A DNA stretch of 64,000 bases, taken from NCBI RefSeq assembly GCF_036248255.1, contig NZ_CP109178.1, positions 4,092,001-4,156,000 of the forward strand. The letters run 5' to 3'. This stretch comes from Streptomyces sp. NBC_01717. Lineage in GTDB: Bacteria; Actinomycetota; Actinomycetes; Streptomycetales; Streptomycetaceae. The translations under genes and the position numbers were made by a program. Under the pieces are notes generated by a model. The model saw only the letters and a list, made by a program, of their open reading frames with translations, was not told the origin of the DNA and searched no databases. This document shows, piece after piece, positions 19,124-22,969 of the stretch; within the stretch, counting starts at the first letter, position 1, and the number at the start of each line of letters is the position of its first letter.

Positions 19124-19473
19124 TGCTGCCCGGCCCGGTCGTCCTGCCGTCCCGCTACCGTTGAACCGTCCCTATCCCGCTTGCTGGCTGCTTGTTGCGA
19201 CTCGGACCTGCCCCGGCCGTTCAACGCCGGCGGTGCTTCGCACTGGCCGCGCTAGGGCGCGTATCGGGTCGTGATCAGGAGGAGGTTCGGGTGAGGTGTC
19301 ACGAAACCCGATGGGCCTTTCCTGGCCGGCGCCTGTTCTCGGGGCGCCGGGCCAGCTGGCGACGTGAGGGCTGAGTTGGGAGTTGACCCTGACACTGTGT
19401 GAGGGGGTTGACTGCTCCTACCTGCCCGGCGACCCGCCGGCGGAGATCACCTCTGTCTCTATGAAGGATTCTC
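19124..19473. other. Interval holding the left end of the composite element and a MerR-type promoter
   Basis: CTAG at 19252-19255 is followed at 19256-19277 by a 22-bp terminal repeat. A GC-rich hairpin (GGCGCC..GGCGCC, about 19328-19346) and a 19-bp-spacer promoter (19383-19413) follow. No gene. Confidence 0.55.
19383..19413 (+). promoter_or_regulatory. MerR-type promoter/operator
   Basis: TTGACC (19383-19388), a 19-bp spacer containing the near-palindrome CCTGACACTGTGTGAGG, and a weak -10 (TTGACT, 19408-19413). The long spacer with a dyad between -35 and -10 is the signature of MerR-family-activated promoters. It reads into the gene at 19474. No merR gene is seen nearby, and the -10 is poor. 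Confidence 0.5.
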
Positions 19474-20412
19474 GTGCTCGGCTACGTCGGCTCCGGCCCC
19501 TACTGCTACACGAACTCGCTGGCCATGATGCTGAGTGAGGAGTCTCCCTCGACCGCAGTCATCGAGACACTGACGGGCTCACCGTTCGGCGCCCAGCTCA
19601 TCGGCGGTTCCCTGCCGTTGTTCGATCCTTACGGTTGGCACCCCGAGGCCGGCCTCGACGCCGCGATCGCTCTGCTGGGTTGGAGCTGTGAGCGCAGCGA
19701 CGGGGGGACACCGACCGAGGCGCTGGAGCGGTTGCGTGCCGCCTGCTCGCGGGGGCCGGTCCTGGTCGGGCCGGTGGACATGGGCCTGCTGCTGTACCAG
19801 CCCGGCACGCCGAACGCCGACGGCGGTGACCACTACGTCGTGGTGCTCGCTGCCGACCAGGACTCCGTCGAACTCCACGACCCCCACGGCCACCCCTACG
19901 TGACCCTGCCCACGCAGGCTTTCCTCTCCGCATGGGAGGCGAAGGCGATCAGCTACATCGACGCCCCGTTCGTGCTGCGGACCGACTTCGTGCGCCATCG
20001 CCGGGTCGCTCCCATCGACGCGTTGAGGCAGTCGCTGCCGGGAGCCGAGCGTTGGCTGGCCGGCCGTGACGACCTGCCCATGCCGCCCGGTTCACTGGGC
20101 GGAGCCGCCGCCGTCGAGGCGCTCGCCGACATGGTCGCCCAGGGCATGCCCTCGGGCGTCCGCACGCTGCTCACCGCGTTCGGCGTCCGCGTGGGAGCAC
20201 GCCGTCTGAACGACGCGGCAACCTGCCTGGAAGCGCTGGGACTGTCGCGCGCAGCCTCCATCGCACAGGGCCAGGCCAGGATCCTGGGCGGTCTGCAGTA
20301 TCCGCTGGTGCACGGCGACGACCAGGCCGCAGCAGCGCGGCTGCGGCAACTCGCCCCCACCTATGCGCAGCTGCACACGGCCGTGGGTACGGCACTGGAC
20401 AGCGCCTTCTGA
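19474..20412 (+). CDS. Papain-like cysteine peptidase/acyltransferase-fold protein (BtrH_N-like)
   Basis: A 312-residue protein starting at GTG 19474 behind GAAGGA. The N-terminal 180 residues carry a papain-type catalytic layout: Cys11 in GPYCYTNSLAMML, His120 in GGDHYVVVLAAD and Asp136 in ELHDPHGHPYV. This is the arrangement of C39-like/BtrH N-terminal domains; BtrH transfers an acyl group from a carrier protein to an aminoglycoside. The C-terminal third is helical and of unknown type. Other members sit in natural-product clusters; here it is cargo of an IS-like composite. Catalytic activity is plausible, substrate unknown. Confidence 0.65.
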   Translation: MLGYVGSGPYCYTNSLAMMLSEESPSTAVIETLTGSPFGAQLIGGSLPLFDPYGWHPEAGLDAAIALLGWSCERSDGGTPTEALERLRAACSRGPVLVGPVDMGLLLYQPGTPNADGGDHYVVVLAADQDSVELHDPHGHPYVTLPTQAFLSAWEAKAISYIDAPFVLRTDFVRHRRVAPIDALRQSLPGAERWLAGRDDLPMPPGSLGGAAAVEALADMVAQGMPSGVRTLLTAFGVRVGARRLNDAATCLEALGLSRAASIAQGQARILGGLQYPLVHGDDQAAAARLRQLAPTYAQLHTAVGTALDSAF

Positions 20413-20543
20413 ACGGAATGAGGAGCGCATCCTCCCTTCCAGGGGCCTCTCCCCGACCGTTGCGTATGCCCTCCGGCTCGCCCGCCACCGGACCGGGTCC
20501 GTGACCGTTGGCTTGGCAGACCTTGAGGCCGAATCTCTCAGAT

Positions 20544-20565
20544 TGATTACAGTCCGATACGCGCC
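20544..20565. repeat. Inner terminal repeat of the cargo unit
   Basis: TGATTACAGTCCGATACGCG.. is the inverted partner of 19256-19277 (18 of 22 matched), in the same orientation as the right end at 21640-21661. It is directly followed by the left end of the IS5 unit (20566, GGGGCTCGTACTTTTGTGAT..). Confidence 0.65.
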
Positions 20566-20584
20566 GGGGCTCGTACTTTTGTGA

Positions 20585-21117
20585 TCAGTGGGTGATCTGT
20601 GTGAGGTCTTTGATCCAGATCATCGAGGCGCGTAGGTGAAGGCCAGCGAGGTAGCTGCCCGGGGTCTTGTCGTAGCGCGTGGCAATGCCTCGCCAGGCCT
20701 TGAGCTTGTTGATCAGGCGCTCGACGGTGTTCCGCTCCTTGTAGAGGTCGGCGTCGTGGCCGACCGGACGGCCGCCCCTGGAGCCCTTCTTCCTCCGATT
20801 GGCGGCCTGGTCCCTCTTCTCCGGGATGACCGCCTTGATGCCGCGTTGCCGCAGGTGGGCCCGGTTGCCTCGGGACGAATAGGCCTTGTCCCCGGCGACC
20901 GCGCCGGGTCGGGTGCGGGGGCGGCCAACGGGCCCGCAGACCCGGATCTTCCCCAGCACGGGGATGAACTGCGGGCTGTCGGCGGCCTGACCCGCGGTCA
21001 GGACGAGCGCCAGCGGGCGGCACTTCCGGTCGGCGGCGAGGTGGATCTTGCTGGTCTGCCCACCCCTGGAGCGTCCGAGGAGAGCGGCCTTCAGCCGGAC
21101 TTTGCGCCGGCGCCGGA
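20585..21117 (-). CDS. IS5-family transposase, second frame (orfB, DDE C-terminal part)
   Basis: Frame from about 21117 to the stop at 20585: EEQRRIRRRRKVRLKAALLG, GRSRGGQTSKIHLAADRKCR, AVAGDKAYSSRGNRAHLRQR (second Asp) and ERNTVERLINKLKAWRGIAT (DDE glutamate). It has no good start of its own upstream of the overlap, so it is likely produced by ribosomal frameshifting from orfA (21588-21091), as in other two-frame IS5 transposases. Confidence 0.8.
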
Positions 21118-21588
21118 TGCGTCGCTGCTCCTCCCGCTCGGGATCGGTTTCGGCGTCCCGTCCGGTTTGTCCTTCAGGACTGCCCCCTTTGACCGGGCCT
21201 CCTTCTCCTCGGCGGCAGCCTTCTCCAGGACGGTGATGACGTCCTCGCCAAGGTGCATCCCGGCAGCGTCATGGTGGGCCCGCGCAGTGGTGGAGTCGAC
21301 GCTGACCAGGGACAGGTCCACCTCACCGCGCTTCGCGGCTTCCGCGATCACGCCCTCCAGCAAGGCCTCGAAGACGCTGGCGTCCCGCCACTGCCGGAAG
21401 CGGTTGTGGACGGTCGACCAGGCGCCGAACTCCTTCGGCATCTCTCGCCACTGCCCGCCCGTCCTGAACCGCCAGATCACCCCTTCGAGCTGTTGCCGCA
21501 GCCGCTCCGGGTACGGGCCGTACTCTCCGACCGGCAGGTAGGGCCTAATGAACTCCCAGTCCAGGTCCGTCAGTTGCATGCGCGTCAT
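21091..21588 (-). CDS. IS5-family transposase, first frame (orfA, N-terminal part)
   Basis: 165 residues with the IS5 N-terminal domain (LTDLDWEFIRPYLPVGEYGP, EGVIWRFRTGGQWREMPKEF, WSTVHNRFRQWRDASVFEAL) and the first catalytic Asp in LSLVSVDSTTARAHHDAAG. The end (GRSSDASGAGAKSG) overlaps orfB by about 27 nt in another frame. Both parts look undamaged apart from the frame change. Confidence 0.8.
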   Translation of the reverse strand: MTRMQLTDLDWEFIRPYLPVGEYGPYPERLRQQLEGVIWRFRTGGQWREMPKEFGAWSTVHNRFRQWRDASVFEALLEGVIAEAAKRGEVDLSLVSVDSTTARAHHDAAGMHLGEDVITVLEKAAAEEKEARSKGAVLKDKPDGTPKPIPSGRSSDASGAGAKSG

Positions 21589-21661
21589 GCAAGATGATCT
21601 ACCGGACCCGGTCTCGTCGCGAGGGTGAATCCCACAGATTGATCACAACCCGATACGTGCC

Positions 21662-21895
21662 CTAGTCGCCTTCCGGCTCCGGATGCAGGACGGCCAACTT
21701 CACGGCCATCTCCAGCTCGTACCGGGACACCCCGGCCGCCGCGGCATGCGCGGTCACCGCGGCCTGGAACGCTGCAGCACCCTCGCGCCAGGGCTCCCAC
21801 GCCTCCTCGGTGTACGGCTCGGGGAGGGCCTTGCGCTGCTCCGCGACCGCAGACCGTTCCAGCACGATCGGATCTTCAGGGATGTCGATTGCCAC
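21662..21895 (-). CDS. Small hypothetical protein, 77 aa (island-associated)
   Basis: A soluble helical protein (MAIDIPEDPIVLERSAVAEQ, AAFQAAVTAHAAAAGVSRYE, LEMAVKLAVLHPEPEG). Similar short proteins recur in Streptomyces mobile regions; no function is known. Its TAG stop lies within the CTAG that flanks the IS5 composite, so the composite inserted at the very end of this gene and may have changed or created its stop. Confidence 0.6.
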   Translation of the reverse strand: MAIDIPEDPIVLERSAVAEQRKALPEPYTEEAWEPWREGAAAFQAAVTAHAAAAGVSRYELEMAVKLAVLHPEPEGD

Positions 21896-22135
21896 GGCCG
21901 GATCGTAAACGGGGCCACTGACAACCGACCGGAGCCGCGCAGCTCACGGCCCAACCGCTTCATCAAGGTCTCCACGTGGACAACCGCGCATATGGGTGCG
22001 CTCCGCTCGACCACTCGCTTGATCGTTCGGCGCGTCTGCCGTCAGGGCCACCTAGCGCGGTGGAAATCTGCCGGAGGGTGCCCGAGAGCGGGACTTTCCC
22101 GTCCATTCGCTTGCTTCTCTGAGGAGTAATTGAGC

Positions 22136-22969
22136 ATGAGTACTGAGAACCGCACCCGGTCCGGCATCGGGCCGCTGCTCAGGCAGGGCAGGTGGTGCGT
22201 CGGCGGTGCTGCGGCGTCGCTGCCCCTCGTGGTGCTTGGTTTCGCCGAGCCTGCGATTGCGGCCCCGTTGAGCTCGCTGTCGGCGCCCACGAGCTCGGTA
22301 CGTGCCGCCGGCGGCGATGAGTGCCGGGACGGCAGGGGCGATCACGGCGGCGTACCCGGCCCCCTGGGCTACGGCCACGACAAGTGCAAGGTCGGACCCA
22401 CCGGCCCGCAGGGCGCCACCGGCCTGCAGGGTCCGCAGGGCGACCCCGGACAGACGGGCGGCATCGGTCCGCAGGGCGACCCCGGACAGACGGGCGGCAT
22501 CGGTCCGCAGGGCGACCCCGGACAGACGGGCGGCACCGGACCGCAAGGCGACCCCGGACAGACGGGCGGCACCGGACCGCAAGGCGACCCCGGACAGACG
22601 GGCGGCACCGGACCGCAAGGCGACCCCGGACAGACGGGCGGCACCGGACCGCAAGGACCGGCAGCACCCCAACTGGTCCTCGGTCAGTTCCTCTCGACCC
22701 AGATCGTGCACGGCGCGACGCTTACTTGTGCGAGCACCAACACGACCGCGTCCAATACAACGTGTACAGGGCTACAGATCAACGGTATCGACGTCCGGCT
22801 CGCGATTACTGAAGCGGTAGCCGTCTGCAATGCCATCACCGGTCATGGCTTCAGCTCCGCGATGGGGCTTAACTCCGCCGCGGATCCCCACTTCATCTGG
22901 AACGGCACGACATGGGAGCTCAGCTCGATCAACGCCTCGCCGATGGACAACCTCGTCTGCAATCGTTGA
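22136..22969 (+). CDS. Secreted collagen-like protein with 12-residue repeats
   Basis: 277 residues from ATG 22136 (GAGGAG 11 bp upstream; a TTG at 22130 is an alternative). It has a signal peptide ([20 protein letters not shown] ending AIAA), a short Cys-containing region ([16 protein letters not shown]) and a Gly-X-Y domain made of six near-identical [11 protein letters not shown](I/T) units. A C-terminal globular domain of about 100 residues has Cys residues ([32 protein letters not shown]) and probably acts as a trimerisation or binding head. Likely extracellular; host function unknown. Confidence 0.8.
22430..22645 (+). repeat. Six 36-bp tandem repeats inside the collagen-like gene
   Basis: Unit GGTCCGCAGGGCGACCCCGG + ACAGACGGGCGGCATC. 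Copies 1-3 and 4-6 form two sequence subtypes (GGTCCGCAGGG versus GGACCGCAAGG). Near-perfect DNA identity implies recent expansion or slippage; copy number probably varies between strains. Confidence 0.9.

Follow-up and report, generated by a model that had tools for sequence, protein, structure and literature searches.

A passenger gene for a CtaG/BtrH-fold protein in an IS5-family element of Streptomyces, probably inserted as one unit

Insertion sequences (IS) can carry more than their own transposase when neighboring DNA becomes enclosed by their ends. We analyzed a 64-kb stretch of DNA, hereafter the window, from a 10.2-Mb Streptomyces genome of three contigs, and found a 2,406-bp segment (19256-21661) that is probably an IS5-family element with a cargo gene, resembling a transporter IS, and would have been inserted as one unit. 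It combines a complete IS, the tips of another, and a stand-alone gene that is modeled as a CtaG/CcbD-fold enzyme. Elements with the same ends and other cargoes recur in the genus.

Layout of the element and family of its IS

The segment consists of a left part with the cargo gene (unit A) and a right part with the transposase (unit B), with the following features:

19252-19255, no strand: left CTAG, target copy (sequence and repeat comparison)
19256-19277, plus strand: left outer IS end, 22 bp, abutting native upstream DNA of the cargo gene (repeat comparison and relatives)
19383-19413, plus strand: promoter-like sequence before the cargo gene, which we take to be of the MerR type (TTGACC, 19-bp spacer with a palindrome, TTGACT)
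19474-20412, plus strand: cargo gene, 312 aa, CtaG/CcbD/BtrH-fold protein by model, with Cys11-His120-Asp136
20525-20565, minus strand: remnant of an IS 5' end, 41 bp, with the right IS end of unit A as its tip (20544-20565)
20566-20587, plus strand: degenerate inner IS end of unit B
20585-20959, minus strand: transposase ORF B, DDE half, 124 aa, listed from the first start codon
21091-21588, minus strand: transposase ORF A, DUF4096 half, 165 aa
21640-21661, minus strand: right outer IS end, 22 bp
21662-21665, no strand: right CTAG, target copy, containing the stop codon of a 77-aa gene (21662-21895, minus strand)

An earlier note, made from the letters alone, had described the left unit as having IS-type ends and a Cys-His-Asp gene in place of a transposase, and the right unit as a two-frame IS5 transposase. 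Both descriptions agree with what we find: the 312-aa ORF lies in the former, and the ORFs of 165 and 124 aa, which IS5-family models match, lie in the latter. The NF033580 model (IS5 family) gives E values of 1e-29 for ORF A and 1.2e-24 for ORF B, and its scores of 103.9 and 87.2 bits both fall under the curated cut-off of 110 bits, as expected for the halves of a split protein. Pfam DUF4096, DDE_Tnp_1_2 and DDE_Tnp_1 score above their cut-offs in the transposase ORFs, and by profile models the transposase is thus of the IS5 family. ORF B lies in the -1 frame relative to ORF A, the same layout is seen in unit B and in a plain copy of the IS elsewhere in the genome (L002), and the transposase frames are intact.

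The ends belong to the same family, as had been proposed. Two plain copies in this genome, L002 and L003, differ at 2 positions in 1,105 bp (99.8% identity), have identical 22-bp terminal inverted repeats and are flanked by CTAG on both sides, which is the short target duplication expected of an IS5-family element. The close likeness of two CTAG-flanked copies shows, judging by sequence, that the IS moved in this genome not long ago. Both are 88% identical to unit B, and 366 of 392 genomes of the genus have a match to the IS, be it close or distant. The pattern of CTAG plus the 22-bp end (up to 3 mismatches) is found at 7 places in the 10.2-Mb genome and its reversed control at 0. CTAG itself occurs 22 times in the window against 250 expected at equal base use. 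In PMC3281130, the IS427 group of the IS5 family is described as short IS with two overlapping transposase ORFs, short terminal repeats and a short target duplication, usually of 2 bp. The present IS is a candidate member: it is likewise short, with short terminal repeats and a short target duplication, here of 4 bp, and its two frames may be joined in the way of that group.

The outer inverted repeat (19252-19277 and 21640-21665) is 92% complementary over 26 nt, CTAG included on both sides. Four matching 22-bp ends had been claimed. Three stand (19256-19277, 20544-20565 and 21640-21661), agreeing with one another at 18-20 of 22 positions and with the end of L002 at 17-21 of 22, but the fourth, 20566-20587, is degenerate and agrees with the outer end of unit B at only 13 of 22. 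The two ends of unit A match at 18/22 (82% over 22 nt), and a stretch of 41 bp at its inner right end (20525-20565) resembles the 5' end of unit B (21621-21661, 80%). We considered whether the inner end of unit B is a natural variant and rejected this, as no end resembling it (up to 5 mismatches) is present in 29 related IS loci, 22 of which have both ends at plain spacing.

The cargo gene and its spread

The note had called the cargo papain-like and of BtrH_N type. Its general fold type is supported by modeling, but the BtrH_N family itself (PF14399) scores 15.9 bits against a cut-off of 29.7, and Peptidase C39 (PF03412) 17.5 bits against 22. A sequence search of solved structures with the cargo protein gave a best E value of 0.37. 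The predicted structure matches the solved structures of CtaG, CcbD and AziU3-U2 over its whole length at 10-14% identity, with the same Cys-His-Asp order and a His-Asp distance of 16 residues, as in the CtaG variant names C11A/H128A/D144N, whereas C39 structures align with its first half only. His120 and Asp136 are invariant in a 24-sequence alignment, and Cys11 is nearly so, one row being without its N-terminus. The protein thus models as a CtaG/CcbD-fold Cys-His-Asp enzyme and, on this model, is more likely a transferase than a peptidase; its chemistry is predicted to be acyl or aminoacyl transfer through Cys11. In contrast to these systems, the gene in the window stands alone, and a fold match does not show the reaction. 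No match to an anti-phage family was found.

Matches to the gene occur in 24 of the 392 genomes, its own and one weak match counted, with the nearest relative in the same genus (G224) and a 92% match in S. diastatochromogenes. In the 22 other Streptomyces genomes with strong matches, no IS end (up to 6 mismatches) was found within 1.5 kb on either side of the gene, one of the 22 loci being cut at a contig end. The loci of ten relatives have in common the gene, no more than about 330 bp before it and some tens of bases after it; farther out the flanks differ, two short weak matches and a genome represented twice excepted. At the position of the left IS end, S. flavochromogenes and S. hydrogenans have uninterrupted native upstream sequence, and in S. 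diastatochromogenes the bases adjoining the tip are present and the tip is absent. On these grounds the IS tip was, by sequence comparison, most likely joined to native DNA, and the cargo captured, in the lineage of the window. Two other origins of the left end were tried and rejected. One was an eroded transposase 3' end, with which 15 of 20 tip-adjacent bases agree; we take these bases as native because S. diastatochromogenes has the same ones without the tip. The other was an ancient IS end common to the relatives. In L017, L019, L021 and L050 (L022 being the same genome as L050), the best or second-best match of a 42-base end consensus lies roughly 190-230 bp before the gene. The fraction of 4,000 random 90-bp windows scoring as high with the 22-bp tip alone is 0.021 for L019, 0.17 for L050 and L021, and 0.79 for L017, which is not significant overall and leaves L019 as a weak hint. 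GC-rich tandem repeats lie upstream of the S. diastatochromogenes copy (L017:1152-1292), where the window has the IS tip.

The note had also suggested that unit A is mobilized in trans, and had named further copies of it, alone and flanked by CTAG, as possible support. Mobilization in trans is unsupported so far: neither the genome search nor the CTAG-plus-end pattern found a second unit A in this genome, none lies at the gene in the 22 others, and the composite and unit A are each known from one copy. Genomes with the 312-aa gene in this position without IS ends were named there as a counter-case; the gene does occur without such ends, but at other positions.

These observations fit a reading in which the gene generally spreads by another route, such as plasmids, large elements or recombination, with its IS link local, late and without weight for that spread. 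The flanks of close relatives differ and contain no IS ends, the family is a wide one, with 894 homologues scored, and plasmid records with cargo matches include Sinorhizobium (64) and Enterococcus (6); DNA of unit A matches 10 plasmid records, none of which covers 80% of it. Nothing stands against this reading family-wide, although the copy in this genome has IS tips and CTAG as its borders. We lean towards it, and since insertion as one block concerns this copy only, the two may hold together and their probabilities overlap. On a Streptomyces plasmid (L202:5166-6930), a cargo homologue starts 22 bp after a MerR-family gene.

The same ends around other genes

CTAG plus the 22-bp end (up to 2 mismatches) occurs in 110 of the 392 genomes and the reversed control in 0. 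Among the matches listed, which are the first places per genome and hence give no rate, convergent ends less than 10 kb apart form 26 closed pairs in 17 genomes, 11 of them plain (1,084-1,096 bp) and 15 non-plain, the focal one included; ends 29.6 kb apart in G141 were left out. Among these same matches, 9 of the 14 other non-plain pairs hold genes with Pfam domains, some of the domains in L168 and L169 having been tested on the corresponding gene of L174, L184 or L182. The cargoes comprise an MMPL transporter with a histidine kinase and a response regulator (G033, with a deleted form in G212 and a distant version in G177); TetR, anthrone-oxygenase-like and ABM proteins (G243, in which a transposase was looked for and not found); a glyoxalase fold (G177); an NmrA/NAD-binding protein (G240); LysR with SnoaL (G142); a zinc-type dehydrogenase (G264); and SnoaL with DUF3224 (G365).

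Five pairs were not counted as Pfam-supported cargo. A second pair in G243 (L170) holds an ORF without a Pfam match, and L172 (G177) holds extra DNA in which no gene was found. L176 (G129) is probably a nested IS, because its ORF looks like IstB by eye. L177:1231-1893 (G097) measures 663 bp and has perfect ends, CTAG on both sides and a 150-aa ORF without a Pfam match and no transposase inside, making it a candidate transposase-less cassette. L188:1306-4791 (G010) is an ordinary composite arrangement, with two full inverted IS copies, each flanked by CTAG on both sides, around about 1.3 kb with a gene. Across the elements the cargo lies on either side of the transposase, and L168, L178 and L179 keep a piece of the transposase 3' end at the far end, as expected if one IS of a composite has eroded. 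On contig 1 of G166, IS ends stand in mirror order near both chromosome ends by eye, which suggests IS copies inside long terminal inverted repeats.

Joint movement of IS and cargo is best supported by the MMPL element. Its cargo is found at these ends, with 92-99% identity, in ten genomes (G033, G252, G382, G063, G067, G319, G220, G212, G007 and G309). The 5.6-kb IS form with MMPL transporter, histidine kinase and response regulator is seen at L174:1259-6912 and also in L168, L181, L184, L190, L192, L193 and L195; as L181, L184 and L190 show, the whole transposase or both ends are not kept in every copy. In the copies compared, homology ends at CTAG, the outside sequence differs in all eight copies inspected, and CTAG lies outside at least one end of each.

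IS with passenger genes (transporter IS; Siguier 2009, IS1595 family, as cited in PMC3129680), transposase-less mobile insertion cassettes (MIC231; De Palmenaer 2004, as cited in PMC3129680) and mobilized adjacent DNA (TMos) are established, according to PMC3129680, PMC9330008, PMC7986276 and PMC3281130. Like the transporter IS described there, the present element has one transposase and a passenger gene between two IS ends with the target duplication outside, but it keeps a complete IS and extra internal ends, which is atypical, its partner IS is eroded to tips, and it belongs to the IS5 family. Unit A resembles MIC231, as outlined there, in having IS ends and a passenger gene without a transposase; it differs in adjoining unit B and having no CTAG flanks, and hence no target duplication, of its own. 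The TMos of PMC3281130 and PMC9330008 likewise involve a single transposase-bearing IS that moves a neighboring segment, whereas the far end of the present element is a genuine IS tip (21/22 against a plain copy). A composite transposon is also bounded by IS ends on both sides, but requires two full IS copies, as in L188, and here one full IS faces tips. Among the matches listed, the titles and abstract beginnings in the open-licence literature contain no passenger-carrying IS5 element in Streptomyces. The principle is known; the IS lineage, its repeated carriage of cargo and this cargo appear new.

More tentatively, and at slightly less than even chances, this IS5 lineage may act as a standing gene shuttle of Streptomyces. 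With the full IS kept and its partner eroded to a tip, it would repeatedly have given rise to compact elements by which one to three accessory genes pass from species to species (MMPL with a two-component system, regulators, oxidoreductases, glyoxalase-fold, SnoaL-fold and CtaG/BtrH-fold proteins), with occasional transposase-less forms moved in trans. If so, genes could pass from one Streptomyces species to another by a path that is readily overlooked, in a short and common IS that repeatedly takes up accessory genes. Because the end sequence is fixed and the target is CTAG, copies of this IS can be counted in any genome. A precise history would also be gained for a single copy of a CtaG/BtrH-fold enzyme gene that stands alone and whose promoter-like sequence is presumably of the MerR type.

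Insertion of the two units

We picture the origin of the element as follows. In an ancestor, IS ends would have come to flank a CtaG/BtrH-fold enzyme gene that stood alone and had its own promoter. Of the two IS, one would have retained its transposase (unit B) and the other would have been reduced to tips (22 bp at 19256 and 41 bp at 20525-20565). Because the inner end of unit B has decayed, the outer two ends are the likely working ends. A transposase produced by frameshifting from ORF A into ORF B would act on them, and the block would have been inserted at CTAG, duplicating these 4 bp. That IS and cargo travel as one unit is credible, since other Streptomyces too have cargo-bearing copies with these ends.

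The note had concluded that the pair moved as one from CTAG lying outside the outer ends and not at the inner junction. The pattern is as described (CTAG at 19252-19255 and 21662-21665, and CGCC/GGGG at the junction), but the outer CTAGs alone do not prove joint movement, since CTAG is the usual target of the IS and decay of the inner end of unit B could have removed an inner CTAG as well. The conclusion draws indirect support from the recurring cargo-bearing copies and from an unoccupied locus. When the two flanks joined without the element were searched in the 392 genomes, one genome (G070) had the two flanking genes as neighbors, with neither the cargo gene nor the IS at the locus. The flank matches there are separated by 193 bp, compared with 156 bp in the query, at 80% and 67% identity, and no CTAG is present at the site; the site has diverged, so that the unoccupied locus is visible but the 4-bp duplication is not. 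The right flank alone gave only weak matches in 33 of 120 relatives, its own genome included (best other E 1.2e-14). Joined flanks of 15 insertion sites were examined for restored host genes, with spanning ORFs at three; in L175 the gene starts within the right piece, and in L178 neither piece has a Pfam match. We counted against insertion as one unit that a single composite copy is known, that G070 is diverged and without CTAG, that restored host genes are uninformative, and that unit A possesses a good right end of its own, which would allow A and B to have arrived independently.

Separate arrival would mean that a transposase-less unit A was inserted at CTAG and that unit B later entered the CTAG at its right end, with the inner CTAG and the end of unit B decaying thereafter. 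The ends of unit A are fair (18/22 mutually) and the inner end of unit B is altered; transposase-less forms with the same ends exist elsewhere (L177 and L169), and in L175 the inner IS end still adjoins a CTAG. Here, however, the junction has no CTAG, and unit A alone is absent both from this genome and from the cargo gene in 22 others, and we regard two events as unlikely. A resident gene with IS copies landing by chance on both sides, in a block that never moved as a unit, is very improbable: in G010 a gene does lie between two full IS copies that each have a CTAG of their own (L188), but the G070 locus has neither gene nor IS, and no CTAG lies at the inner side of the cargo. Insertion of 19256-21661 as one unit thus remains our preferred reading for this copy. 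Beside the element, at 22130-22969 of the window, lies an ORF with collagen-like Gly-Pro-Gln-Gly repeats.
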